The notes: generated by a model from the sequence alone, not told the origin. 47,631 nt of DNA from Hypnocyclicus thermotrophus (GCF_004365575.1 NZ_SOBG01000011.1:1-47631), one strand, 5' to 3'. Shown: positions 16,243-40,954, counted from the first letter of the stretch. Translations and numbers: made by a program.

Positions 16243-16243
16243 T

Positions 16244-16274
16244 AAAAAAATAGAGGAAATTCCTCTATTTTTTT
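16244..16274 (+). terminator. Strong intrinsic terminator after the zinc-ribbon gene
   Basis: A perfect 14-bp stem AAAAAAATAGAGGA (16244-16257) / TCCTCTATTTTTTT (16261-16274) has a 3-nt loop and ends in a T-run. It isolates the downstream signalling cluster from upstream transcription. Confidence 0.9.
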
Positions 16275-16295
16275 AATATTATAAATAGAAAAAGT

Positions 16296-16312
16296 TTTAA
16301 GAAAATTTTAAG
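16296..16312 (+). promoter_or_regulatory. TTTAAG direct repeat with 11-bp period (possible OmpR-family regulator site)
   Basis: TTTAAG (16296-16301) and TTTAAG (16307-16312) are separated by 5 bp, as part of a perfect 11-bp tandem repeat TTTTAAGAAAA. One-turn-spaced direct repeats are typical of OmpR/PhoB-family response regulator sites, and TTTAAG-N5-TTTAAG is the known CiaR box of streptococci. It sits 20 bp before the HD-GYP start in the only space available for its promoter. No response regulator gene is present here, and the AT-rich background makes coincidence possible. Confidence 0.3.
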
Positions 16313-16331
16313 AAAATTGTGGGGAGAAGAA

Positions 16332-17834
16332 ATGGAGTTAGATTATAAAAAATTATTAAATGACCTTATAAAAATCGCAATATCGTTATCTGCAGAAAGA
16401 GATATAGAGAAATTATTAAATATAATCTTAAAAGAAAGTATGAGAATAACCTGTAGTGACGGTGGAAGCATATATGTAAAAGAAACAGATGAGAAAGGTA
16501 AAGATTATTTAAGATTTGCAATAACTCATAATGTCTCAAGAAAAATAGATTTTAATGAATTTACTCTTCCTTTAGACAGGAACAGTATAGCGGGATATGT
16601 TGGGTTTAGTAAAAAAACTCTAATATTAAAAAATGTAAATAATATTGATGAAAATATTGGATTAAAATATAATTCTAGTTTTGATGAAAAAATAAATTAT
16701 CAAACAGTAAATATGCTTGTAATACCGATGTTAGATTATAATCATGAGCTTGTGGGAGTATTACAACTTATAAATAAAAAATCAGATTATAATTTGATTT
16801 TAGAAAAAAAAGAAGAGATACGAAAACAAATTTTAGAGTATAATAAAATTGAAGCACAAATCATCAGTTCTTTAGCATCTCAAGCAGCTATTCTTATTGA
16901 AAGAACAAAACTTTACAATTCTATTGAAAATCTTTTACAATCGTTTATTGAATCTATGGTTATGACTTTAGAAAAAAGAGATAATACTACTTCTGGTCAT
17001 TCAAGACGTTTAGCAGGATATGCATTAAAATTTTTAGAAACAGTAAGTAAAGTAAATTATGGAAAATATGCTTATACAAAATATGATAAAAATCAAATAA
17101 AGGAGATATATTATGCAGCACTTCTTCATGATATAGGTAAAATAGGAGTTAAAGAATATATTTTACAAAAAAGAGATAGACTTACTGAAGATAGAATTAA
17201 TGTAATTAAATATAGATATAAATATTTTAGAGAAATATTATCTCAAAATGGAGAAATTGAAAAAATAAAAAAATATGATGAATATATAAAGTTTATAGAA
17301 GAAACTAATAAAAAAGGTTATTTACAAGAAGAAGAAGAGGAAAAATTAAAAGAAATATATAATGAAAAAATAAAAATAAATGAGAAAGAAGAAAAAATTA
17401 TAGATGAATTTGAATATAAAAATTTATCAATCAAAAGAGGAAATTTAACTGATAAAGAGAGAGAAGAAATGATAGAACATGTAGTATATTCAAAAGAGAT
17501 TTTAGATGGAATAAAATGGACAAAACAATTAAAAAACGTACCAATAATAGCAGGAGGACATCATGAAAAAATAGATGGTTCAGGATATCCGCTAGGATTA
17601 AAAGGCGATGAAATAACGACACAAGCAAAAATATTAGCTATTTTAGATATTTTTGAAGCTCTTACAGCAAGAGATAGACCATATAAACCTCCTATGTCAG
17701 TAGATAAAGCTATAAGTATTTTAAAAAAAGAAGTTGAAGCAAATCATTTGGAAAAAGATTTATTAGATATATTTTTAAAAGAAAAAATATATGAATTGTA
17801 TAAAGAAGAATTGGATAAAATAATAAAATTGTAA
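16332..17834 (+). CDS. GAF / HD-GYP domain protein, probable c-di-GMP phosphodiesterase
   Basis: The 500-residue cytoplasmic protein has an N-terminal GAF sensor (about 15-190, GGSIYV..., VIPMLDYNHELVGVLQLINKK) and an HD-GYP phosphohydrolase. The latter shows EKRDNTTSGHSRRLAGYA, LLHDIGKIGV (HD at 266-267), GGHHEKIDGSGYP (408-420) and LDIFEALTARDRPY. All expected metal and GYP residues are present, so hydrolysis of c-di-GMP is likely. About 130 residues separate the HD and GYP blocks, more than in minimal HD-GYP domains, with a Lys/Glu-rich helical insertion. TTG at 16317 is rejected since GGGGAG lies between it and the ATG at 16332. It is first in a seven-gene co-directional series. Confidence 0.9.
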   Translation: MELDYKKLLNDLIKIAISLSAERDIEKLLNIILKESMRITCSDGGSIYVKETDEKGKDYLRFAITHNVSRKIDFNEFTLPLDRNSIAGYVGFSKKTLILKNVNNIDENIGLKYNSSFDEKINYQTVNMLVIPMLDYNHELVGVLQLINKKSDYNLILEKKEEIRKQILEYNKIEAQIISSLASQAAILIERTKLYNSIENLLQSFIESMVMTLEKRDNTTSGHSRRLAGYALKFLETVSKVNYGKYAYTKYDKNQIKEIYYAALLHDIGKIGVKEYILQKRDRLTEDRINVIKYRYKYFREILSQNGEIEKIKKYDEYIKFIEETNKKGYLQEEEEEKLKEIYNEKIKINEKEEKIIDEFEYKNLSIKRGNLTDKEREEMIEHVVYSKEILDGIKWTKQLKNVPIIAGGHHEKIDGSGYPLGLKGDEITTQAKILAILDIFEALTARDRPYKPPMSVDKAISILKKEVEANHLEKDLLDIFLKEKIYELYKEELDKIIKL

Positions 17835-17895
17835 TATAAATTTATTGAAAAGTCATTTATTATAAAAATTATGATAAATAATAGGAGGGAAATTA

Positions 17896-18786
17896 ATGGC
17901 GGATGATATAAAAATAAAATTTTGGGGAGTACGAGGTAGTCATAATGTGTTTGGTGACCAATATAAAAAATATGGTGGGAATACTACATGTTTATCTATT
18001 GAAATTGGTAAAAAAATAATGATATTTGATGCAGGAACAGGGATAATCAATTATGGTAAAGATATATTGAAAAATAAAAAAAATACAGAAATTAATATAT
18101 TTTTTACGCATACACATATAGATCATATACAAGGTTTGATGTACTTTACACCTATTTATATGAAAAAATATTTTTTTAATTTTATAGGTTCAGCAGTATT
18201 TACAGCAAGTTTTAGTGATATTTTAACTAATATAATGAGTCATCAATATTTTCCAGTAAAATTTAGACAAACAGGAAGTTATAAAAGAATATATGAAACC
18301 CATGATAATCAAATTATTATAATTAGAAAAGATAGTAACAATATAGAAATTTATAACAAAAATTATGAAACATATGAAATAGAAAAAGAAGATATAGTAG
18401 TTACTTGTATGCATGCAATTAATCATCCAGTTGGGGGAGTAAATATATACAAAGTAGAATATAAAAATAAAAAAATTGTATTTGCAACGGATGTTGAAAG
18501 TTATGTAGGTGGAGATGAAAAATTAATTGAATTTAGTAAAAATGTAGATATTTTGATACATGATAGTGCTTATTTAAATGATGAATACAAATTAAAACAA
18601 GGATGGGGGCATAGTACTCCTGAAATGGCAGCAGTAAATGCAAAGAAGGCGGAAGTAAAAAAACTTTATTTAACGCATCATAGTCCAGATGATACAGATG
18701 AAATTGTAGATAAAAAAGTAGAAATAGCAAGAAAAATATTTAAAGAAAGTTATTTAGCATATGAAACTTTGGAAATAAAATTATAG
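17896..18786 (+). CDS. Metallo-beta-lactamase-fold hydrolase
   Basis: A 296-residue cytoplasmic MBL-fold protein. Metal ligands are clear: THTHIDHIQG (71-80, HxHxDH), His177 in NHPVGG, Asp199 in FATDVE and a final LTHHSP (259-264). The N-terminal KFWGVRGS...GGNTTCLSIE...IFDAGTGI belongs to the subgroup of MBL proteins often found beside signalling proteins in Gram-negative bacteria. Possible activities are a cyclic-nucleotide phosphodiesterase or RNase Z-like enzyme. The neighbourhood (HD-GYP upstream, adenylate cyclase downstream) makes a phosphodiesterase attractive, but that is inference. There is no signal peptide. GGAGGG precedes the ATG; the next gene starts 15 nt downstream. Confidence 0.82.
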   Translation: MADDIKIKFWGVRGSHNVFGDQYKKYGGNTTCLSIEIGKKIMIFDAGTGIINYGKDILKNKKNTEINIFFTHTHIDHIQGLMYFTPIYMKKYFFNFIGSAVFTASFSDILTNIMSHQYFPVKFRQTGSYKRIYETHDNQIIIIRKDSNNIEIYNKNYETYEIEKEDIVVTCMHAINHPVGGVNIYKVEYKNKKIVFATDVESYVGGDEKLIEFSKNVDILIHDSAYLNDEYKLKQGWGHSTPEMAAVNAKKAEVKKLYLTHHSPDDTDEIVDKKVEIARKIFKESYLAYETLEIKL

Positions 18787-18801
18787 TTTGGGGGAGAATT
18801 T

Positions 18802-20067
18802 ATGAAAAAAGTTTTTTTAGGAATGTTTTTTATTTATAGCACTATTTTTGCTATAGAAAACTTAGAAACAAGTAATAATCAAAAATTAAACAAAGTAGAA
18901 GGGCTCGACTTAATAGCAATATTAGTAGAAAATGAAAATTATAATTTGGCTAATGATTTATTAAAAAATTTATCTGTTGAAGAAAAACAAGGGGAAAAAT
19001 ATTATAAAAATTTAGCAAAAATAAAAAATGGTCTTTCTGAAAAGGATGAAGCAATAAAATATTATAAATATATTTTAGAAAATTTTGATAATATTGATAA
19101 ATTATATTACAATTTTGAATTATTAAAAATATATGTAACTGATGAAAAATATAATAATGAAGTTATAAAAACTATAAAAAAAATCAAAAAATTTAAACTA
19201 GATAAAAAAAGTAAAAATAAATTAAAAGAACTTGAAAGAATTTATAAGAAAAAAGCTAATATTGAATATCTAAAAAATATAGAGTTAGGATTAGGATATA
19301 ATGACAATTTATATACATTAAAAGAAAATAAAATTGGAGATATGTATACAAATATGAACTTTACTCTAATGGGAGTTAATAAAATATCAGACAATTATAA
19401 TCTTACTTTTTTTACCTCTTATAGAAATCAACTTTATTCAAAAGAAACTACTAAAACAAATCATAATATATTTATAGGAGGACAACCTCAATATTTTATT
19501 AATGATACATTAAATATATCAGCGCCTAGTATGTTTAAATTAACATTTGAAAATGGGAAATATAGTGAATTTGGGATAAATATAGGGGTATTATCATTTA
19601 AAACTATAAATGATAAATCAAATATTAATTTTGGAATAGATATAGGATATAAAAATAATAAAATAGATAATTATAAAGGAACTACGATGACTCTTTATTC
19701 AACTTATAATTATTTAGATCAAAAAGAAATATTAAATACAATTAATTTTATAACTGGAAAAGAGAAATATAATGAAAGTACTTATGATAATAATTATATA
19801 AATATAGGAATAAATAGAACTCAAAAATTTAAAGAAAAATATAATATGAATTATGGATATATATTGTCTTATAAATTGAATAGTTTAGAAATTGATGGAG
19901 TTAAGAAAAAAGATATATCACATAACATAGCTGGAAATATTAGTGGGAAAACAATATGGGAAATGAATTGGAGCGTTGGGTATACATTTATATATGGAAA
20001 TTCAAATATCAATTCATATGATTATATAAATAATATTATATCAACTACACTTAGTAGAGAGTTTTAG
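18802..20067 (+). CDS. Exported protein with helical repeats and a C-terminal outer-membrane beta-barrel
   Basis: A 421-residue protein with a signal peptide (1-17, ending IFA) and a helical part with TPR-like character (about 30-150, NYNLANDLLKNL, EKDEAIKYYKYILENF, LKELERIYKK). About 260 residues of alternating aromatic/polar strands follow, such as NIELGLGYNDNLY, FGINIGVLSFKT and INFGIDIGYK. The last residue is Phe in LSREF, the C-terminal signal recognised by the BAM complex. It should be an outer-membrane protein with a periplasmic repeat domain. I do not recognise a named family. It is followed 10 nt later by the FecR-domain gene, which suggests a joint envelope function. Confidence 0.75.
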   Translation: MKKVFLGMFFIYSTIFAIENLETSNNQKLNKVEGLDLIAILVENENYNLANDLLKNLSVEEKQGEKYYKNLAKIKNGLSEKDEAIKYYKYILENFDNIDKLYYNFELLKIYVTDEKYNNEVIKTIKKIKKFKLDKKSKNKLKELERIYKKKANIEYLKNIELGLGYNDNLYTLKENKIGDMYTNMNFTLMGVNKISDNYNLTFFTSYRNQLYSKETTKTNHNIFIGGQPQYFINDTLNISAPSMFKLTFENGKYSEFGINIGVLSFKTINDKSNINFGIDIGYKNNKIDNYKGTTMTLYSTYNYLDQKEILNTINFITGKEKYNESTYDNNYINIGINRTQKFKEKYNMNYGYILSYKLNSLEIDGVKKKDISHNIAGNISGKTIWEMNWSVGYTFIYGNSNINSYDYINNIISTTLSREF

Positions 20068-20077
20068 GAGGGAAATT

Positions 20078-21097
20078 ATGAAAAAGACAATTTTAATGAT
20101 ATTTTATATAATGATTTTTAATATTATATTTAGTGCCTCTGAATTAGATTCTCTACTTCAAGATGATACAGAAAAATTCAAAGACTTATTAACTGAAGAT
20201 ACTATAAATGAAGTACCTAAAAAAGCTTTTGTATCAAAATTAAATGGGCAAGCATTTTTAAAACTGGATAATGATGATAGTTGGTATCAACTAGTTGAAA
20301 ATGCAGAAATAGAAGAAAAAATGACTATTTTAACTACAGAAAAAACAACACTTTCACTTAAAATGGAAGATGGAAGCTTTGTAAATATAGGAGAAAAAAC
20401 AAAAGTTTATATAGAGTCACTAAAAGGAAGACCACAAACAGAAGAAATAACAGAAACAGGGTTAAATCTATTATGGGGGAAAATATATTCAAATGTAAAG
20501 AAAAAAGTAGAAACAGGTGCAAAATACGAAGTAAAAACAGGAAGTGTAGTTGCCGGTGTTAGAGGAACAAAATTTACAGTATCGGCGGCTAAAAATGGTC
20601 GTTCTGATATTACAGTTTTTTCAGGAATTGTAAGTGTAAAAAAGATAGGTAGTGATTTAGAAATACTTGTAAACAAAAATCAAAAGGTAAAAGTAGATAG
20701 AAAAGGTAGTATAGGAGAAATAGAGCAACATCAAGAAACACCACCAGAAGAAGAAATAAACCCAGAAGAAACTATAGCAATTGTTGCTGAAAAAATAGAA
20801 GAAGTAAAAGAAACAAAAGAAGAATCTGAAGAAATAAAAACTCTAAAAGAAAAAGCAATAGAAAAAAAAGAGACTATAAAAGAAAAATCAAAAGAAGTAG
20901 TTTCAGAAGTAAAAGATGGGGTAAAAGAGGAAACAGTTAATACAAACCCAGAAGTAATATCATTAAAAAACAATTTAACTATGATTGATAATTTTGTTAA
21001 TCAAACTGTAGATCAAGCAAATGCAGTAGAAATAATTAAGAAAATACAAGAAATAGAAGAAGATAAAACAAATAAATTAATAATACAGATTAAGTAA
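20078..21097 (+). CDS. FecR-domain periplasmic protein
   Basis: A 339-residue exported protein with a signal peptide (about 1-19). A FecR domain (about 50-210) is seen as VSKLNGQAFLKLDND, TLSLKMEDGSFVNIGEKTKVYI, GLNLLWGKIYSNVKKKVETGAKYEVKTGS and VAGVRGTKFTVSA, then FSGIVSVKK. FecR in the iron-citrate system relays a signal from an outer-membrane receptor to a sigma factor. FecR-domain proteins without a membrane helix, as here, are also widespread and mostly uncharacterised. The C-terminal third is a highly charged Glu/Lys coiled coil. There is no ECF sigma gene nearby. The neighbours (OM barrel upstream, CHASE2 cyclase downstream) suggest a relay within the periplasm. Confidence 0.85.
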   Translation: MKKTILMIFYIMIFNIIFSASELDSLLQDDTEKFKDLLTEDTINEVPKKAFVSKLNGQAFLKLDNDDSWYQLVENAEIEEKMTILTTEKTTLSLKMEDGSFVNIGEKTKVYIESLKGRPQTEEITETGLNLLWGKIYSNVKKKVETGAKYEVKTGSVVAGVRGTKFTVSAAKNGRSDITVFSGIVSVKKIGSDLEILVNKNQKVKVDRKGSIGEIEQHQETPPEEEINPEETIAIVAEKIEEVKETKEESEEIKTLKEKAIEKKETIKEKSKEVVSEVKDGVKEETVNTNPEVISLKNNLTMIDNFVNQTVDQANAVEIIKKIQEIEEDKTNKLIIQIK

Positions 21098-21118
21098 GAT
21101 TAAAAAGGGGTAAAATAA

Positions 21119-21871
21119 ATGAAAAAAGTAATTATGAGTGTCTTATTATTAATGATAGTTGGTTGTATTAATTATCAAGAAGAAAAGCCAAAAGGTGAAT
21201 TAAAATTTATGATAAATTGGCCTAAAAAAGAGATAAATACAAATGTTAGTACAAATATATTACCAGAAACAAAAAAAATATCAATATATTTATTTAAATA
21301 TGATGGAAATAATTATAATAATTCTATAGAAATAAAAAAGGAAATAATTAGAAATGGTGAAAGTGAATATTTAATTACAATTGATGATTTGGAAGTTGGG
21401 AATTGGTCTATTGATATGAAAGCATATAATAGTTTAGATAAAGAATTAAATTTTATATATGATGATATCGTTATAAACGAAGGGACAAATGCTTATACAG
21501 TATTTTTTGGTGGGCCTAACAACATATATGGTATTTCTTTGGATACTACGACAAATCTTAGTGATTTTACTGGAATAGAATTTGAATCTATGGGATCAAA
21601 TTATAGCCATATTAATGTAGATTCTTCAACATACTCACAATATGATCATATTACTTATACATTATATGTAAGTACAAATTCAGATATGTCTAATGCTGTG
21701 CAAATATCAGAAGTAAGTTCTACTTATAGCGGAGAAATTATAAAATTCAATTATCCAATTGATTTTCCTTCATATGAGTTTACTCCAGGTCAAAAATATT
21801 ATTTTAAAATTAGAGGTGAAAATACTATAGGTTATAAAGATAGCAATATATTTACTATTAGTTTTCAATAA
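21119..21871 (+). CDS. Lipoprotein, short paralogue
   Basis: A 250-residue lipoprotein with a lipobox LMIVGC (Cys16). The mature part opens with GELKFMINWPKKE and NILPETKKISIYLF, contains DDLEVGNWSIDMKAYNS (a beta-sandwich-like domain) and a second part with LDTTTNLSDFTGIEFES and PGQKYYFKIRGENTIGYKDSN, which resembles a fibronectin type III-like fold. The first 240 or so residues parallel the next gene's product (INWPKK, NILPET, GNWSIDM, Y..FGGPN.IY), so the two arose by duplication. The function is unknown; it is likely anchored in the inner or outer membrane facing the periplasm. GGGG precedes the ATG. Confidence 0.75.
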   Translation: MKKVIMSVLLLMIVGCINYQEEKPKGELKFMINWPKKEINTNVSTNILPETKKISIYLFKYDGNNYNNSIEIKKEIIRNGESEYLITIDDLEVGNWSIDMKAYNSLDKELNFIYDDIVINEGTNAYTVFFGGPNNIYGISLDTTTNLSDFTGIEFESMGSNYSHINVDSSTYSQYDHITYTLYVSTNSDMSNAVQISEVSSTYSGEIIKFNYPIDFPSYEFTPGQKYYFKIRGENTIGYKDSNIFTISFQ

Positions 21872-21931
21872 TAGTAAATATGAAAAATAGGATTAAAGCA
21901 TTTTATATTAAAAAATTAAGGAGGAAAATAA

Positions 21932-23473
21932 ATGAAAAAAATAGGGATAATATTAATATTATTTACACTTTTGGGATGTTTTAATAATAGTAATGATGTA
22001 AAAGAACAGGTGAAAAATGCTACTGATATAACAAAAGGTGATGGTGAGTTTGTATTTAATGTAAAATGGCCTAAGAAAAATATAGTACAAAATTCTAATA
22101 TAATGGCAAATATACTTCCTGAAACTCAGACTATTGAAATTAATTTAAATCATGCCACTTTACAACAATCAAAATCTGTATCAATAGTTTATCCGGCTAC
22201 ATCAGCTAGTATTGATAATCTTTTAGCTGGACAATGGAATATCGATATTTCTGGTAAAGATAATCAAAATAATCCATTAAATGTTATATATGATTATTTA
22301 AATATTGGACCAGGAGTTAATTCTTATACTGCTATCTTTGGAGCGCCTAATATTATTTATAATACAAGTGTTGAAGGGAAAACTGTCTACCCATATGATA
22401 ATAAATCAAATGTAAATGCGGGAGATATTATATATGTAGATATTTCAAGCTTTAGTGGAATACAATTTGATTCTGTAGAATCAAATTGTAATTCTGATTT
22501 TGTTAGCCCATCATCGATAGATAATAATATTAATTATCAATTATATTTTGGAACAGCACCAACTTCATTATCTTTACAATCTGCAACAAAAAATTCAACA
22601 AGTTCAAATATACAATTACACTTTGATTATCCAAGTGATTTTACTACTACAGTTACAGCGCCAAATGATTATTATTATAAAATAGTTGCATCAAATAGTC
22701 ATGGAAGTACACATTCGCATATATTTAAAATAAAAATGTACGATAAAGGCATAGTAATAAATGATTATATAGAAAAATATAAAAATTTTGCATTTGAACT
22801 TTGGAAATATTTTTATTTTGCACAAGCTTCTACACAGGCAGCTATTTCTACAGAATATGTTGATTTAATGGATAGTAATAATAGTACAACAGGTGGATTA
22901 TTAATAACAGCAGATGAGTATGGACGTGCAACACAAGTAGAAAAATTATTTAGTAATTCAACAAATTCAAATATACAATATTTAGATTATAATGAGGCAC
23001 AATTAATATCTCTTCATGATGATAGTAATAAATTTGAAGCATTATTAAAATATGATACGAACGGAAATATTGAAGCTGTTGAAGTGTATGAAGACAAAGA
23101 TGGTAATAATAATATAGATTATAATACAGAACTAATAGAAAAATTTTATAATATAAATTATGACACAAATAATCATTTACAATCATTTAAATATGATAAA
23201 TATTCATATAGTACAAATACATCACCATCGTATATAGATGTAAATAAAACTTATGATGCAAATGTTACTTATTTAGGAGATCATTTTACAAGTTTAAAAT
23301 ATTATTATAATAGTAGTAATGTAGCTGAAATACAGTATGATTTTACTACAACACCTGGAGTAGTAACAGTAGATTATCACAGATATAGTAATGAAACATC
23401 TGATGAACATTTTAGAAATGATGAGAAAGAGATTTATACTAGTGAAAGTAGTGTAACAATGACAATAGATTAG
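21932..23473 (+). CDS. Lipoprotein, long paralogue with extra C-terminal domain
   Basis: A 513-residue lipoprotein with a lipobox TLLGC (Cys16). Residues up to about 270 are paralogous to the preceding lipoprotein (GEFVFNVKWPKK, NILPETQTIEINL, AGQWNIDISGKD, FGAPNIIY, FSGIQFDSVESN, YYYKIVASNSHG). The remaining 240 residues are an additional Tyr/Asn/Asp-rich beta domain with repeated motifs like YDTNGNIEAVEVYEDKDG, YNINYDTNNHLQSFKYD and YYYNSSNVAEIQYDF, reminiscent of YD/RHS-type repeats though not a clear match. It is surface- or periplasm-exposed. AAGGAGG precedes the ATG, and the cyclase gene begins 7 nt after its stop, supporting co-transcription. Confidence 0.75.
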   Translation: MKKIGIILILFTLLGCFNNSNDVKEQVKNATDITKGDGEFVFNVKWPKKNIVQNSNIMANILPETQTIEINLNHATLQQSKSVSIVYPATSASIDNLLAGQWNIDISGKDNQNNPLNVIYDYLNIGPGVNSYTAIFGAPNIIYNTSVEGKTVYPYDNKSNVNAGDIIYVDISSFSGIQFDSVESNCNSDFVSPSSIDNNINYQLYFGTAPTSLSLQSATKNSTSSNIQLHFDYPSDFTTTVTAPNDYYYKIVASNSHGSTHSHIFKIKMYDKGIVINDYIEKYKNFAFELWKYFYFAQASTQAAISTEYVDLMDSNNSTTGGLLITADEYGRATQVEKLFSNSTNSNIQYLDYNEAQLISLHDDSNKFEALLKYDTNGNIEAVEVYEDKDGNNNIDYNTELIEKFYNINYDTNNHLQSFKYDKYSYSTNTSPSYIDVNKTYDANVTYLGDHFTSLKYYYNSSNVAEIQYDFTTTPGVVTVDYHRYSNETSDEHFRNDEKEIYTSESSVTMTID

Positions 23474-23480
23474 GAGAAAA

Positions 23481-25808
23481 ATGATGTTACGAAAAAATAT
23501 AATTAAAAGTGGGTATATTATACTCACTTTTATGATTTTTATTTATATAATATACACAAATCTTGGAATGACTTTTTTTGAAATTTTTGAAGTAAAAACA
23601 TATGATATGAGATATAAAGCAATGGATATATTTGAGAAAAAAAATCGCGAATATGATGTAGTGATAGCTGGTGTTGATGAAAAAAGTTTAATTGAAATAG
23701 GTAAATGGCCTTGGGAAAGAAGTATACATGGCAAACTAGTTACAGCTTTAACTGAATATGGGGTAAAAAGTATAGGATTTGATGTATCTTTTACAGAAGA
23801 AGGTGTATCAAAAGATAAAATAGATTATAAAAAAAATATGAAAACAATAGTGGCTACTAAATATAAGCAAGGAATTATACCAGAACAAGATGCTATTGAA
23901 CTTTTAAAAGAAATAAATAAACTTGATACAGACCAAGACTATGAATTTGCTTTAGCATTAAAGAAAGCAAAAAATACTGTAATAGGAACTTATAATATTA
24001 TGGATATAGCAGAAGATATATCTAGATTTGAGTATAATAAAATATATTATCAAAAAAGCCGTTTTTATAAAATAAATGGAATATTAGACGAAATAAAAGA
24101 AGTAGGAAGAACAGGAGAAAGACGTGTAAAACCGTTTGAAATATATAAAATAATTCCTCCTATAGATATTATTGCAAAATTTGCATATGGAATAGCACCT
24201 TATGATGTAGGTAGACCAGATATAGATGGAGTTCTTAGAGGAATTGTTACTGTTACAAAAGAAAATTTATCAAATTTGTATTTTCCACCATTGTACTTAT
24301 TAGTGTACTTAAAATCAGAAAATTTAAGTATAAAGGATAATGTAGTATTAGATTTAAAAAATTCTAAAATAGATATTTTTAAAGATGAAAAACTATACAA
24401 AACTATACCAACAAATATAAATGGTTATCAAAGGCTTTTCTTTTATGGGAAAGGGCATACATTTAAATATATATCATATACAGATATTATTAATAAAAGA
24501 GTAGATAAAAAAGAACTTGAAAACAAAATAGTATTAGTAGGATATACAGATAGTGCAAAAGGACTATATGATTTAAGGGTAACACCTCTTGATCCTAACA
24601 CACCAGGAGTAGAGCTTCATGCAACAGCTATTCAAAATCTTATTGATAATAAATTTATGAAAAGAATAGAGGTAAAAGGAGAAGTACCACTTTTATTTTT
24701 ATTTGGAAGTTTAATTATATTTATATTGTCAATAAAGGATATAAATTTAGCACTTTCAAATATTTTAACTAATAGTGTTATAGTGACGTACTTGATTTTA
24801 TCTTATATTTTATTTAGAAAAGGTCTGTGGATAGAAGTTTTTTATCCAATTGTCGTTTTTATCTTAATATATTTAATTTTAACAATAGAAAATTATTTTT
24901 TAGAAGGTAAAGAAAAAAAATATATAAGGAATGTATTTGGGCATTATATTTCACCGATACTTGTAGAAGAGTTAGTAAAAAAACCGGAAATGTTGAAACT
25001 TGGAGGAGAAAAAAGAGAGCTTACTGCATTTTTTTCGGATATACAAGGATTTACTTCTATTTCTGAAAAAATGAGTCCAGAAGAATTAGTTGAATTTTTA
25101 AATGATTATTTATCAGTTTCAACTAATATTATATTAGAATATAAAGGAACTATTGATAAATATATAGGAGATGCGGTAATGGCTATCTTTGGAGCACCAA
25201 TCCAATTAGAGAATAATGCTTTAAATGCATGTTTTGCAGCACTAGAATACCAAGAAAAATTAGTAGAATTTAGAGAAAAATATAAAGAGAGTGGATATCC
25301 GCCGATATATGCAAGAATTGGTATAAACAGTGGAGAAATGGTAGTAGGGAATATGGGATGTAATATAGGTGAAAATAAAAAGTTTAATTACACTATAATA
25401 GGCGATGAAGTAAATTTAGCCTCAAGGCTTGAAGGTGCTAATAAAATGTATGGAACTTATATAATGATAAGTGAAAATACATATAAAAAAGTAAAAGAAG
25501 ACGTAGAAGCAAGACTTTTAGATTTAGCAAGAGTTAAAGGTAAAAAAGTAGCAGTAAAAACTTATGAACTAATGGCTAAAAAAGGAGAATTATCTCAAGA
25601 AAAATTAAAATTAAAAGAATTATATGAAAAAGGCTTAGATTTTTATTTTAATAAAGAATGGAAAAAATCAAAAGAGATGTTTTTAAAAGCAATTGAAGTA
25701 GATGAAAATGATGGACCGAGTAAGCTTTATATAAAAAGAATAGAAGAATATATAAAAAATCCTCCACCAGAAGACTGGGATGGAGTATATACATTTACTA
25801 CAAAATAA
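23481..25808 (+). CDS. CHASE2-domain class III adenylate/guanylate cyclase
   Basis: A 775-residue inner-membrane receptor cyclase. Order: TM1 (11-30), extracytoplasmic CHASE2 sensor (about 35-395, YDMRYK..., VVIAGVDEKSLIEIGKWPWERSIHG, IGFDVSF, GVELHATAIQNL), three TM helices (402-470) and a class III cyclase domain (507-700). Metal Asp residues are in FSDIQGFT (518-525) and KYIGDAVMAIFGAP (560-573). TIIGDEVNLASRLEG (638-652) supplies the transition-state Asn and Arg. Lys560 with the Thr/Asp near 638-642 favours ATP over GTP. The C-terminus has a short TPR-like segment. The start is 23481 or 23484 (AGGAG upstream). It is the last gene of the cluster and probably makes cAMP in response to a periplasmic signal. 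Confidence 0.92.
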   Translation: MMLRKNIIKSGYIILTFMIFIYIIYTNLGMTFFEIFEVKTYDMRYKAMDIFEKKNREYDVVIAGVDEKSLIEIGKWPWERSIHGKLVTALTEYGVKSIGFDVSFTEEGVSKDKIDYKKNMKTIVATKYKQGIIPEQDAIELLKEINKLDTDQDYEFALALKKAKNTVIGTYNIMDIAEDISRFEYNKIYYQKSRFYKINGILDEIKEVGRTGERRVKPFEIYKIIPPIDIIAKFAYGIAPYDVGRPDIDGVLRGIVTVTKENLSNLYFPPLYLLVYLKSENLSIKDNVVLDLKNSKIDIFKDEKLYKTIPTNINGYQRLFFYGKGHTFKYISYTDIINKRVDKKELENKIVLVGYTDSAKGLYDLRVTPLDPNTPGVELHATAIQNLIDNKFMKRIEVKGEVPLLFLFGSLIIFILSIKDINLALSNILTNSVIVTYLILSYILFRKGLWIEVFYPIVVFILIYLILTIENYFLEGKEKKYIRNVFGHYISPILVEELVKKPEMLKLGGEKRELTAFFSDIQGFTSISEKMSPEELVEFLNDYLSVSTNIILEYKGTIDKYIGDAVMAIFGAPIQLENNALNACFAALEYQEKLVEFREKYKESGYPPIYARIGINSGEMVVGNMGCNIGENKKFNYTIIGDEVNLASRLEGANKMYGTYIMISENTYKKVKEDVEARLLDLARVKGKKVAVKTYELMAKKGELSQEKLKLKELYEKGLDFYFNKEWKKSKEMFLKAIEVDENDGPSKLYIKRIEEYIKNPPPEDWDGVYTFTTK

Positions 25809-25831
25809 AAAGTGAGTTTTTCTCACTTTTT
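25807..25831. terminator. Bidirectional terminator between the cyclase and mntP genes
   Basis: A perfect 10-bp stem AAAAAGTGAG / CTCACTTTTT (25807-25816, 25822-25831) with a T5 loop, flanked by T-rich sequence on the plus side and A-rich on the other. It is shared by converging transcripts. Confidence 0.85.
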
Positions 25832-25834
25832 ATT

Positions 25835-26086
25835 TTATATAAAAAAAGTTTTTATGCCAAGAATTATAAGAACAAAAGCACCAAAAAATTCTGCCTTTGT
25901 GGTTAAAAATTTATTTGCTTTATTTCCAATATACACTCCACTAAAACAAATAATAAAAGTAATAAATCCTATGATAGCAACTGAAAATATAATATTTAAA
26001 TGTTTTGTAAAAGCTAAAGAAAATCCAGCGGCTAGCGCATCTATGCTTGTAGCAATAGCAAGAAGAATAAGGTTATAGTTTAACAT
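25835..26086 (-). CDS. mntP: C-terminal half of MntP manganese efflux pump (split gene)
   Basis: An 83-residue membrane protein with three hydrophobic helices that corresponds to the second Mntp (DUF204) repeat. LLAIATSIDALAAGFSLAF carries the conserved DAxA metal motif, and GFITFIICFSGVYIGNK...KAEFFGAFVLIILGIKTF matches the usual C-terminus. Full-length MntP is about 185-190 residues with two such repeats. Its ATG overlaps the TGTTAA end of the N-terminal half in a 7-nt overlap (26080-26086), so it could be translated by coupling. A stop codon immediately precedes the ATG in its own frame. No strong Shine-Dalgarno is seen. It could be a functional split subunit or the product of a frameshift. 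Confidence 0.75.
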   Translation of the reverse strand: MLNYNLILLAIATSIDALAAGFSLAFTKHLNIIFSVAIIGFITFIICFSGVYIGNKANKFLTTKAEFFGAFVLIILGIKTFFI

Positions 26087-38817: not shown

Positions 38818-38935
38818 TAGAATAATTATTTTTATTAAAAACTTTAAAATTATATAATTATTTGATAAAATAAAAAGGATAATAGCTATTTCTATTGAAA
38901 TATATATTAGATTATAAATTGTGGAGTTGGTAAGT

Positions 38936-40954
38936 ATGCTTTTATTAGCTGAAGATGATATCTATAATTTTGTGTATACAAAACAAAAAGATTTTTTTAT
39001 TCAAATAAAGGGAAATCTAGAGATATTATTTGTAAATCAAAGTTTTTGTAATGCATTTTCGATAGATGAAACACAAATTGTAGGTAGAAATTTAGGGGAA
39101 TATTTAAATGAAAAATTGAAAAATGAAATAGTTAAAGAAATAAGATATTTAAATAAATTTAAACCTTATTCAAAGGCTAATTATAAAATAAAATTTGGAA
39201 ATTCTAAAAGCGTGTGGTACGAATGGGAATATTATGCAATTTTAAATGAAGAACACATTGTAGAAAAATATAATATTTTAGCAAGAGAGATAAAATCAGA
39301 TAAAACTATTGAAAATATGTTTTTCTTTCAAAATGATATCTTAAAAAAATTAAGTGAAATCAAAACATTTGGTGAATCATTAAAAATATTAGTAGATAAA
39401 TTTAAATCAATAGAAGCATTTGATTCTGGAATACTATATTTATATAATAAAGAAAAAAATATTTTTTATTTAAAAGACTATATTAATATAAGTGAGGTAT
39501 TTTTATCAAATAAAAATTTTTATAATAAAATACATGTTGATGCAAAATCGAGTTTAGACAAAGTTGTATACGTAGAGCAAATAGATGAGTTTAAAAAAGA
39601 AAATATAATGTCAATTGCTAAAATTCCATTAAAAACAGATGAGAATAGTTTTGGACTTATTGTTTTAGTATCCCATAAAAATATGATTATACCAAAAGCA
39701 TTAAAATTGATTATAGAATCTATGAGATATCAAATAAGCAACATAATGTCTAAATTAAAATATATAGATGAACTCAATAATACTAATAATATGATTGAAA
39801 AATTATATGATATTGAGGGCGTTAATTTTTATATATTTAATAAATCTGGAGAAATTTATCCTTTAAAGGAAACATTGAAATTTGAAGAATTACCTATTCC
39901 AGATGATATTATTAGTATGGTAAAGAATAGTAATGATGTTATTAATATAAATGAATATAAAGATTTTAATTATTCTATGTTAATAAATGGAAATAATAAT
40001 TATTTTGAATTAAGACTTTTTAGAGTATCAAAATTAGAATATATTATTAGAATTCAAGATAAAAGTATTTTAGAAGAAAAAAATAATCAAATAAGAGTAC
40101 AAAATGAATTATTAAAATATATTGTAGATGTAGGAAACGTAGGAATTATTGAGATATCAGAAAATAAAGTAGCTTTTAATGAAAGTATTTTAACAATTTT
40201 AAAGTATCCTAAAGAAAATAATATTATTAGTTTTGAAACTTTTAAAAAACTTATTCATATAAATGATTTAGAAAAATTTAATTTTTATTATTTAGATTTT
40301 AACAATAGTAAGAATGGATATTTTGAGTATAAATTTAGGATTAAAAGATATGATAATAATTATATATGGTTAATGTTAAAAGCAAAAAAAGAAAAAGAAG
40401 AAAAAACTTATAAATTTATAGCTTATGATGTAACAAAATTTAAAACAGAAGAGAACGATATAAAAGAGTTATTAATAAAAGATAATATAACAAAGCTTTA
40501 TAATAAAACATTCTTTTTAAAAGAATTAGATAATGAATTTAAAAAACTTCGTTCAAATATTAATCTTTTTTCAGTAGTTATGATATACGTAGAAAATTTA
40601 AATGATATATTAGAAAATTATGGAATTGATATACGAGATTATGTATTAGAAAAATTTGCAAAACATTTAAAAGATAATCTTAGAGAAGAAGATTTAATAG
40701 CTAGATATTCAGAAGATAAATTTGTAATGATACTTAAAAATATTGTAAATAATAATTCTGAAAGTGTAGTTAAAAGAATACTTGATTCTTTTAATATAGA
40801 ACAAATTGAAGAGGGTTTAAAATGTAAAATTTTATTTTTTGATACAGAAATTTTAGATCAAAATATAAATCTAGAAAAAATTATAGATAATATGGTTGAT
40901 AAAATATCAACTATTAAAAATAATTTTGAGCATATAAAACCGATAAATAATTAA
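38936..40954 (+). CDS. PAS/GAF signalling protein with degenerate GGDEF domain
   Basis: A 672-residue soluble protein. An N-terminal PAS (about 15-115, ILFVNQSFCNAFSIDETQIVGRNL), a GAF-like middle (about 130-270), a second PAS (about 400-505, NKVAFNESILTIL...YFEYKFRIKRYDNNYIWLMLKAKKEK) and a GGDEF-fold domain (about 515-672, DNITKLYNKTFFLKELDNEF). The signature position reads ARYSEDKFVMIL, SEDKF (592-596) in place of GGDEF; the catalytic Glu is Lys, so it should not make c-di-GMP. It may bind GTP or act by protein contact. A GTG at 38921 is rejected in favour of the ATG at 38936, 9 nt from GGAG. It is a single gene followed by an unusually long spacer. Confidence 0.85.
   Translation: MLLLAEDDIYNFVYTKQKDFFIQIKGNLEILFVNQSFCNAFSIDETQIVGRNLGEYLNEKLKNEIVKEIRYLNKFKPYSKANYKIKFGNSKSVWYEWEYYAILNEEHIVEKYNILAREIKSDKTIENMFFFQNDILKKLSEIKTFGESLKILVDKFKSIEAFDSGILYLYNKEKNIFYLKDYINISEVFLSNKNFYNKIHVDAKSSLDKVVYVEQIDEFKKENIMSIAKIPLKTDENSFGLIVLVSHKNMIIPKALKLIIESMRYQISNIMSKLKYIDELNNTNNMIEKLYDIEGVNFYIFNKSGEIYPLKETLKFEELPIPDDIISMVKNSNDVININEYKDFNYSMLINGNNNYFELRLFRVSKLEYIIRIQDKSILEEKNNQIRVQNELLKYIVDVGNVGIIEISENKVAFNESILTILKYPKENNIISFETFKKLIHINDLEKFNFYYLDFNNSKNGYFEYKFRIKRYDNNYIWLMLKAKKEKEEKTYKFIAYDVTKFKTEENDIKELLIKDNITKLYNKTFFLKELDNEFKKLRSNINLFSVVMIYVENLNDILENYGIDIRDYVLEKFAKHLKDNLREEDLIARYSEDKFVMILKNIVNNNSESVVKRILDSFNIEQIEEGLKCKILFFDTEILDQNINLEKIIDNMVDKISTIKNNFEHIKPINN

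Follow-up and report, generated by a model that had tools for sequence, protein, structure and literature searches.

A seven-gene cluster bounded by terminator-like hairpins

The DNA analysed here is a window of 47,631 nucleotides. It corresponds to contig 11 of a genome of Fusobacteriales type, 2.2 Mb in size (Hypnocyclicus thermotrophus, NZ_SOBG01000011.1). ORF (open reading frame) calls on the window placed seven genes, all on the + strand, across positions 16332-25808. In order, they encode a GAF-HD-GYP protein, a metallo-β-lactamase (MBL)-fold hydrolase, a predicted outer-membrane barrel, a FecR-domain protein, two lipoproteins (LP1 and LP2) and a CHASE2 cyclase. Searched against Pfam, gene 1 matched GAF and HD_5, gene 2 Lactamase_B_2, gene 4 FecR, and gene 7 both CHASE2 and Guanylate_cyc; the barrel, LP1 and LP2 (genes 3, 5 and 6) had no Pfam match of their own at E<=10. 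On the 5′ side of the cluster lies a terminator-like hairpin (16243-16275, no strand; also found by a scan; -15.8 kcal/mol, z -5.5) and on the 3′ side a terminator hairpin (25802-25836, + strand; -15.8 kcal/mol, z -6.6), both with folding energies far below those of shuffled sequences. The intergenic gaps measure 61, 15, 10, 21, 60 and 7 nt, and each of the six contains a good ribosome-binding site. An initial annotation of this DNA had described seven co-directional genes between strong terminators, with most gaps under 25 nt; the ORFs, Pfam matches and hairpin z-scores agree with this description, as do the gaps themselves (four of six). From this layout, we infer that the seven genes form one operon, read as a single transcript.

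The predicted barrel, FecR protein and CHASE2 cyclase are a conserved signalling module

The last gene (23481-25808, + strand) encodes a CHASE2 sensor joined to a class III cyclase (PF05226, 150 bits; PF00211, 83 bits). Aligned with two orthologues, the cyclase retains the catalytic residues D520, K560, D564, D642, N645 and R649; among them, D520, D564, D642 and K560 should correspond to the metal-binding aspartates and to the lysine and aspartate that mark adenylate-type class III cyclases. The cyclase also matches solved adenylate cyclase structures, and it is predicted to be an adenylate-type class III enzyme that makes cyclic AMP (cAMP). The FecR gene (20078-21097, + strand; PF04773, 52.6 bits) specifies a periplasmic protein with a signal peptide and a charged C-terminal tail. 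The gene before it (18802-20067, + strand) encodes a putative outer-membrane protein, assigned by homology through a protein of the relative G037, with a helical, tetratricopeptide repeat (TPR)-like N terminus and a C-terminal barrel ending in F.

Within Fusobacteriota, CHASE2 was present in 3 of 98 genomes, and the only three genomes with a FecR domain over the cut-off were the same ones; they represent three different families. The cyclase, barrel, FecR and lipoprotein genes are contiguous in G037, where one gene separates FecR from the cyclase. In G038 the two are adjacent, the cyclase being followed by a natural FecR-barrel fusion (L005:11884-13734), whose barrel-like C terminus of ~340 residues ends in F. 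The synteny check proposed in the initial annotation thus came out in favour of the barrel, FecR protein and cyclase in G037 and of the cyclase and FecR protein in G038; HD-GYP and MBL lie elsewhere in both. Scanning genome contigs with single-protein queries returned no relatives, and an alignment-based scan returned G037 together with cyclases in other metagenome-assembled genomes (MAGs), the latter without an adjoining FecR gene.

Across all searched genomes, CHASE2 was found in 153 of 389, three of these within Fusobacteriota. We examined 60 neighbourhoods drawn from the best matches among those listed, mostly on longer contigs, and they are therefore a non-random sample. Outside the phylum, a FecR gene lay within three genes of the CHASE2 cyclase in 27 of 49 cases and directly beside it in 12 of 49, compared with 0 of 468 ORFs farther from the cyclases, a background that includes plasmid and MAG loci. 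Outer-membrane barrels usually end in F, W or Y, and this was the last residue in 20 of 55 proteins beside the FecR/CHASE2 pair versus 8 of 181 other ORFs (p=8e-9). Barrels adjoining FecR elsewhere included TPR plus SlipAM-like, TPR plus DUF2860 and Alginate_exp types. The predicted barrel, FecR protein and CHASE2 adenylate cyclase are a conserved signalling module.

Several further genes were seen near such modules. A protein of ~800 aa recurs at six loci (L063, L070, L092, L094, L090 and L107), encoded between the genes for a FecR protein of ~225 aa and the CHASE2 cyclase. Its last residue is F, the three copies searched against Pfam gave no match, and it has the look of an as yet unrecognised family of outer-membrane proteins. 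Two rhizobial plasmids carry a gene of the DUF5706/'Pycsar system effector family' (L046:1943-2488 and L048:2051-2590) on the opposite strand, just upstream of the genes for the FecR-barrel protein and the CHASE2 cyclase; its product might belong to this system as an effector gated by a cyclic nucleotide. The genome with the FecR-barrel fusion has a second class III cyclase (L007:9601-10905; 434 aa, with membrane helices), away from FecR.

Two predicted second-messenger hydrolases precede the module

Gene 1 (16332-17834, + strand) encodes a GAF and HD-GYP protein of 500 aa (Pfam HD_5 1e-34, GAF), whose probable start is the ATG at 16332 rather than the alternatives at 16296 or 16317. Its HD and HHExxDGxGYP motifs are intact in the alignment, it shares a ~100-residue insert with two orthologues, and the best solved match is the HD-GYP phosphohydrolase 4mcw. 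We predict that it is a cyclic di-GMP (c-di-GMP) phosphodiesterase. The genome has 28 GGDEF matches, which indicates that c-di-GMP is in use. A cyclic-nucleotide-binding GAF domain was also considered; its signature was incomplete in the alignment, and this assignment was set aside. Elsewhere in the window (38921-40954), a PAS-GGDEF protein has a GGDEF match that ends at profile position 113 of 161, and may be truncated or frameshifted.

Gene 2 (17896-18786, + strand; PF12706) encodes an RNase Z-related MBL-fold hydrolase that keeps all of its metal ligands in the alignment (HxHxDH, with H177, D199 and H261 invariant). It is related to the RNase Z models of NCBIfam at a distance and scored far below the cut-offs of the NCBIfam models (34 bits against 400 needed for equivalog NF041851). 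Complete metal ligands in a protein related to RNase Z yet distant from it fit the atypical class-II phosphodiesterases, one of which hydrolyses and lowers cAMP in mycobacteria (PMC9293780). The protein is most likely an atypical class-II cyclic-nucleotide phosphodiesterase of the Rv1339 type, probably acting on cAMP.

Close homologues of the MBL protein (E<=1e-20) and of the HD-GYP protein (E<=1e-40) were confined to the same 3 of 98 Fusobacteriota genomes as CHASE2. The initial annotation had counted both enzymes in the set, a claim strengthened by this perfect co-occurrence and weakened by the gene positions in the two relatives. In G037 and G038, the HD-GYP and MBL genes are neighbours of each other at a locus far from the cyclase, where they adjoin a gene for a ~820-aa protein that is by sequence probably a glycoside hydrolase. 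Being separate in both relatives, the pair is a second co-inherited unit, joined to the core only in the window genome. These positions, together with the 61-nt gap between HD-GYP and MBL, could mean that the cluster is two unrelated operons, an HD-GYP/MBL operon for cytoplasmic hydrolases with a role of their own and a barrel-FecR-lipoprotein-cyclase operon, brought together by a chance rearrangement. We consider this rather unlikely: the pair occurs only in genomes with CHASE2 and FecR (3 of 98 for each), the MBL-barrel gap is just 15 nt, and in unrelated genomes, too, some CHASE2 cyclases have an MBL or HD-GYP gene next to them. Examples are an MBL gene beside the cyclase in Ensifer and in G154 (L058), a GAF-HD-GYP gene immediately upstream of it in G226 (L057) and an HD-GYP gene in the same position in G363 (L068).

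The barrel is a probable distant relative of surface lipoprotein translocators

The window barrel is 26% identical end to end to the G037 protein (E=9e-5), which contains TPR repeats and matches SlipAM over its full length, with 30.9 bits against a cut-off of 22. A profile built from these two barrels matched TPR-barrels adjoining FecR/CHASE2 in other phyla (E=7e-6, Prob 84%). The window barrel falls below the Slam/T11SS (type 11 secretion system) family model, giving no match to SlipAM (PF04575) at E<=10. Through the G037 protein, it would be a distant relative of the TPR-SlipAM/T11SS (DUF560) proteins. An AlphaFold model of the barrel from two sequences was unusable (pLDDT 31); its secondary structure is helical, then strand-rich. 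The LP2 model, at pLDDT 39, was also too poor to use.

LP1 (21119-21871, + strand; lipobox ..MIVGC) is beta-rich, and LP2 (21932-23473, + strand; lipobox ..TLLGC) combines an LP1-like N-terminal region with an extra C-terminal region, both as judged from the sequence. The two had been annotated as paralogues, and they align over their first ~270 residues with 37-38% identity (E=1.4e-20). LP2 had no homologue at E<=0.01 among 99 other genomes. The G037 lipoprotein was tried as an LP1 homologue and rejected, because it gave no alignment and carries a Big_2 domain instead. By these comparisons, LP1 and LP2 are lineage-specific, their position in one relative being occupied by an unrelated lipoprotein, and the earlier inclusion of the lipoproteins in the joint set does not extend beyond this lineage. 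At another locus (L091:4770-7919), the lipoproteins' place between FecR and the CHASE2 cyclase is taken by a gene for a 1049-aa C11 peptidase of the clostripain family.

The relation to SlipAM raises the possibility that the barrel serves mainly to export the two lipoproteins, as a translocator of the Slam/T11SS type, with the cyclase reporting export or the binding of a ligand by the lipoproteins. The G037 barrel, with its TPR repeats and SlipAM score over the cut-off, would fit this explanation, as would TPR_Slam and SlipAM traces in the L085 barrel and the lipoprotein genes 3′ of the barrel in both the window genome and G037. Alphaproteobacterial FecR partners also show weak matches to TbpB_B_D/FHBP_C, the type of domain that is a cargo signature of T11SS (PMC8406197). 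Those cargo matches are under the cut-offs, though, no TbpBBD domain was detected in LP1 or LP2, the window barrel itself lacks a SlipAM match and its structure model is unusable, so we regard this explanation as unlikely. It is conceivable, though in our estimate similarly unlikely, that throughout bacteria modules of FecR and a CHASE2 cyclase work with translocators of the Slam/T11SS type as a sensor of secretion status, in which cAMP, here together with c-di-GMP, would report whether surface lipoproteins have been exported or have bound a ligand.

TPR plus barrel is also the layout of PgaA and BcsC. The barrel could thus be a porin or polysaccharide-export channel, with cAMP and c-di-GMP controlling the export of surface polysaccharide. 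An Alginate_exp barrel adjoins FecR-CHASE2 at L075, and a polysaccharide locus of the window genome (L028) includes a CRP-like gene whose phosphate-binding cassette is intact. We nevertheless find this very unlikely, given that no polysaccharide synthase lies in or beside the cluster and that the barrel resembles SlipAM through G037.

A proposed envelope-to-cAMP relay

We propose, with a probability of about two in three, that the cluster is an NsrA-CyaK-like envelope-to-cAMP system equipped with cAMP and c-di-GMP phosphodiesterases. The TPR-type outer-membrane barrel and the FecR protein, probably with the two lipoproteins, would detect a surface or periplasmic condition; FecR would relay it to CHASE2 in the periplasm, and the cyclase domain in the cytoplasm would then make cAMP. 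The two hydrolases would reset the relay, the MBL protein most likely by cleaving cAMP and the GAF-HD-GYP protein by cleaving c-di-GMP, so that the levels of both messengers are probably tuned jointly, with the GAF domain as a possible link. What we observed is which genes are present, that their catalytic motifs are intact, how far they are conserved, and where they are fused or co-occur; we infer the direction of signal flow, the protein contacts, the enzyme activities and the receptor proteins that read cAMP. That an outer-membrane/FecR assembly feeds the CHASE2 cyclase, as the initial annotation had suggested, is supported by synteny, by gene fusions and by the precedent of NsrA-CyaK in Sinorhizobium meliloti. 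Candidate cAMP receptors in the genome are the CRP-like protein encoded at L028 and an MscS-type channel with a cNMP domain.

Several observations weigh against this proposal. MBL genes were near 1 of 49 and HD-GYP genes near 5 of 49 CHASE2 cyclases outside the phylum, which makes them occasional additions and neither a general part. Shared ancestry could explain part of the 3-of-98 profile, which is uncorrected for ancestry. Proteins with cNMP domains also occur in the sister genome G001, which has no class III cyclase, and they do not single out a specific cAMP receptor. A search for CRP-type DNA sites yielded none that stands out and fewer than expected by chance. Finally, S. meliloti does not need the separate FecR protein SMc02177, whose gene lies beside cyaD1, to perceive the signal (PMC5498481), an argument against FecR having a universal role.

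Comparison with known systems

As in FecI-FecR-FecA, a FecR domain here would link an outer-membrane protein to a cytoplasmic output, but the output is a cyclase. We rejected a role for FecR as an anti-sigma partner because the cluster has neither a sigma factor nor a TonB-dependent receptor. The Burkholderia BiofilmReg operon also pairs a FecR(/LysM) protein with a CHASE2 sensor, whereas its output is a histidine kinase with a response regulator, and it has no cyclase and no barrel (PMC5192318). Slam/T11SS (DUF560) systems share the TPR and barrel outline and the neighbouring lipoproteins (PMC8406197, PMC12282271); the main texts of these two papers mention neither FecR nor cyclases, and our literature search did not find the phrase 'surface lipoprotein assembly modifier' together with FecR.

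Two systems come closer. In Campylobacterota, a CHASE2 cyclase, a cAMP phosphodiesterase, a FecR protein and a TPR protein are clustered and were proposed in 2022 to act in a single pathway (PMC9239204), so that the whole set can no longer be called undescribed, as it had been in the initial annotation. Compared by description only, this cluster shares the cyclase, phosphodiesterase, FecR protein and TPR protein with the window; it differs in having four genes, with no reported lipoproteins or HD-GYP and a TPR protein not described as an outer-membrane barrel (PMC9239204). In S. meliloti, the gene directly before cyaK encodes a protein of 1190 aa that combines FecR and TPR domains with a C-terminal barrel; judging by its size and position, this protein is NsrA, the outer-membrane receptor genetically needed for signalling by CyaK and CyaD1/D2 (PMC7529298, PMC13001267). 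As there, neighbouring genes in the window would supply an outer-membrane barrel, FecR and TPR-like parts and a CHASE2 class III cyclase, with the barrel acting upstream of the cyclase on a signal from outside. FecR, TPR and barrel form one protein in S. meliloti, whereas FecR and barrel are separate genes in the window; the S. meliloti unit also lacks lipoproteins, MBL and HD-GYP, and its output regulator is Clr.

The core relay is therefore already known from other bacteria, through NsrA-CyaK and the Campylobacterota set. What is new is the relation of the barrel to TPR-Slam/T11SS (DUF560) proteins, the lineage-specific lipoproteins and an operon that includes both predicted second-messenger hydrolases; the resemblance to SlipAM also suggests a possible link with protein export, one that we did not find described in the literature searched. 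CHASE2 is a widespread sensor domain with few known signals. That many phyla regularly pair it with FecR and a barrel of the outer membrane offers a testable route by which signals could cross the whole envelope to cAMP, and makes NsrA-CyaK, described in one plant symbiont, an instance of a general design.

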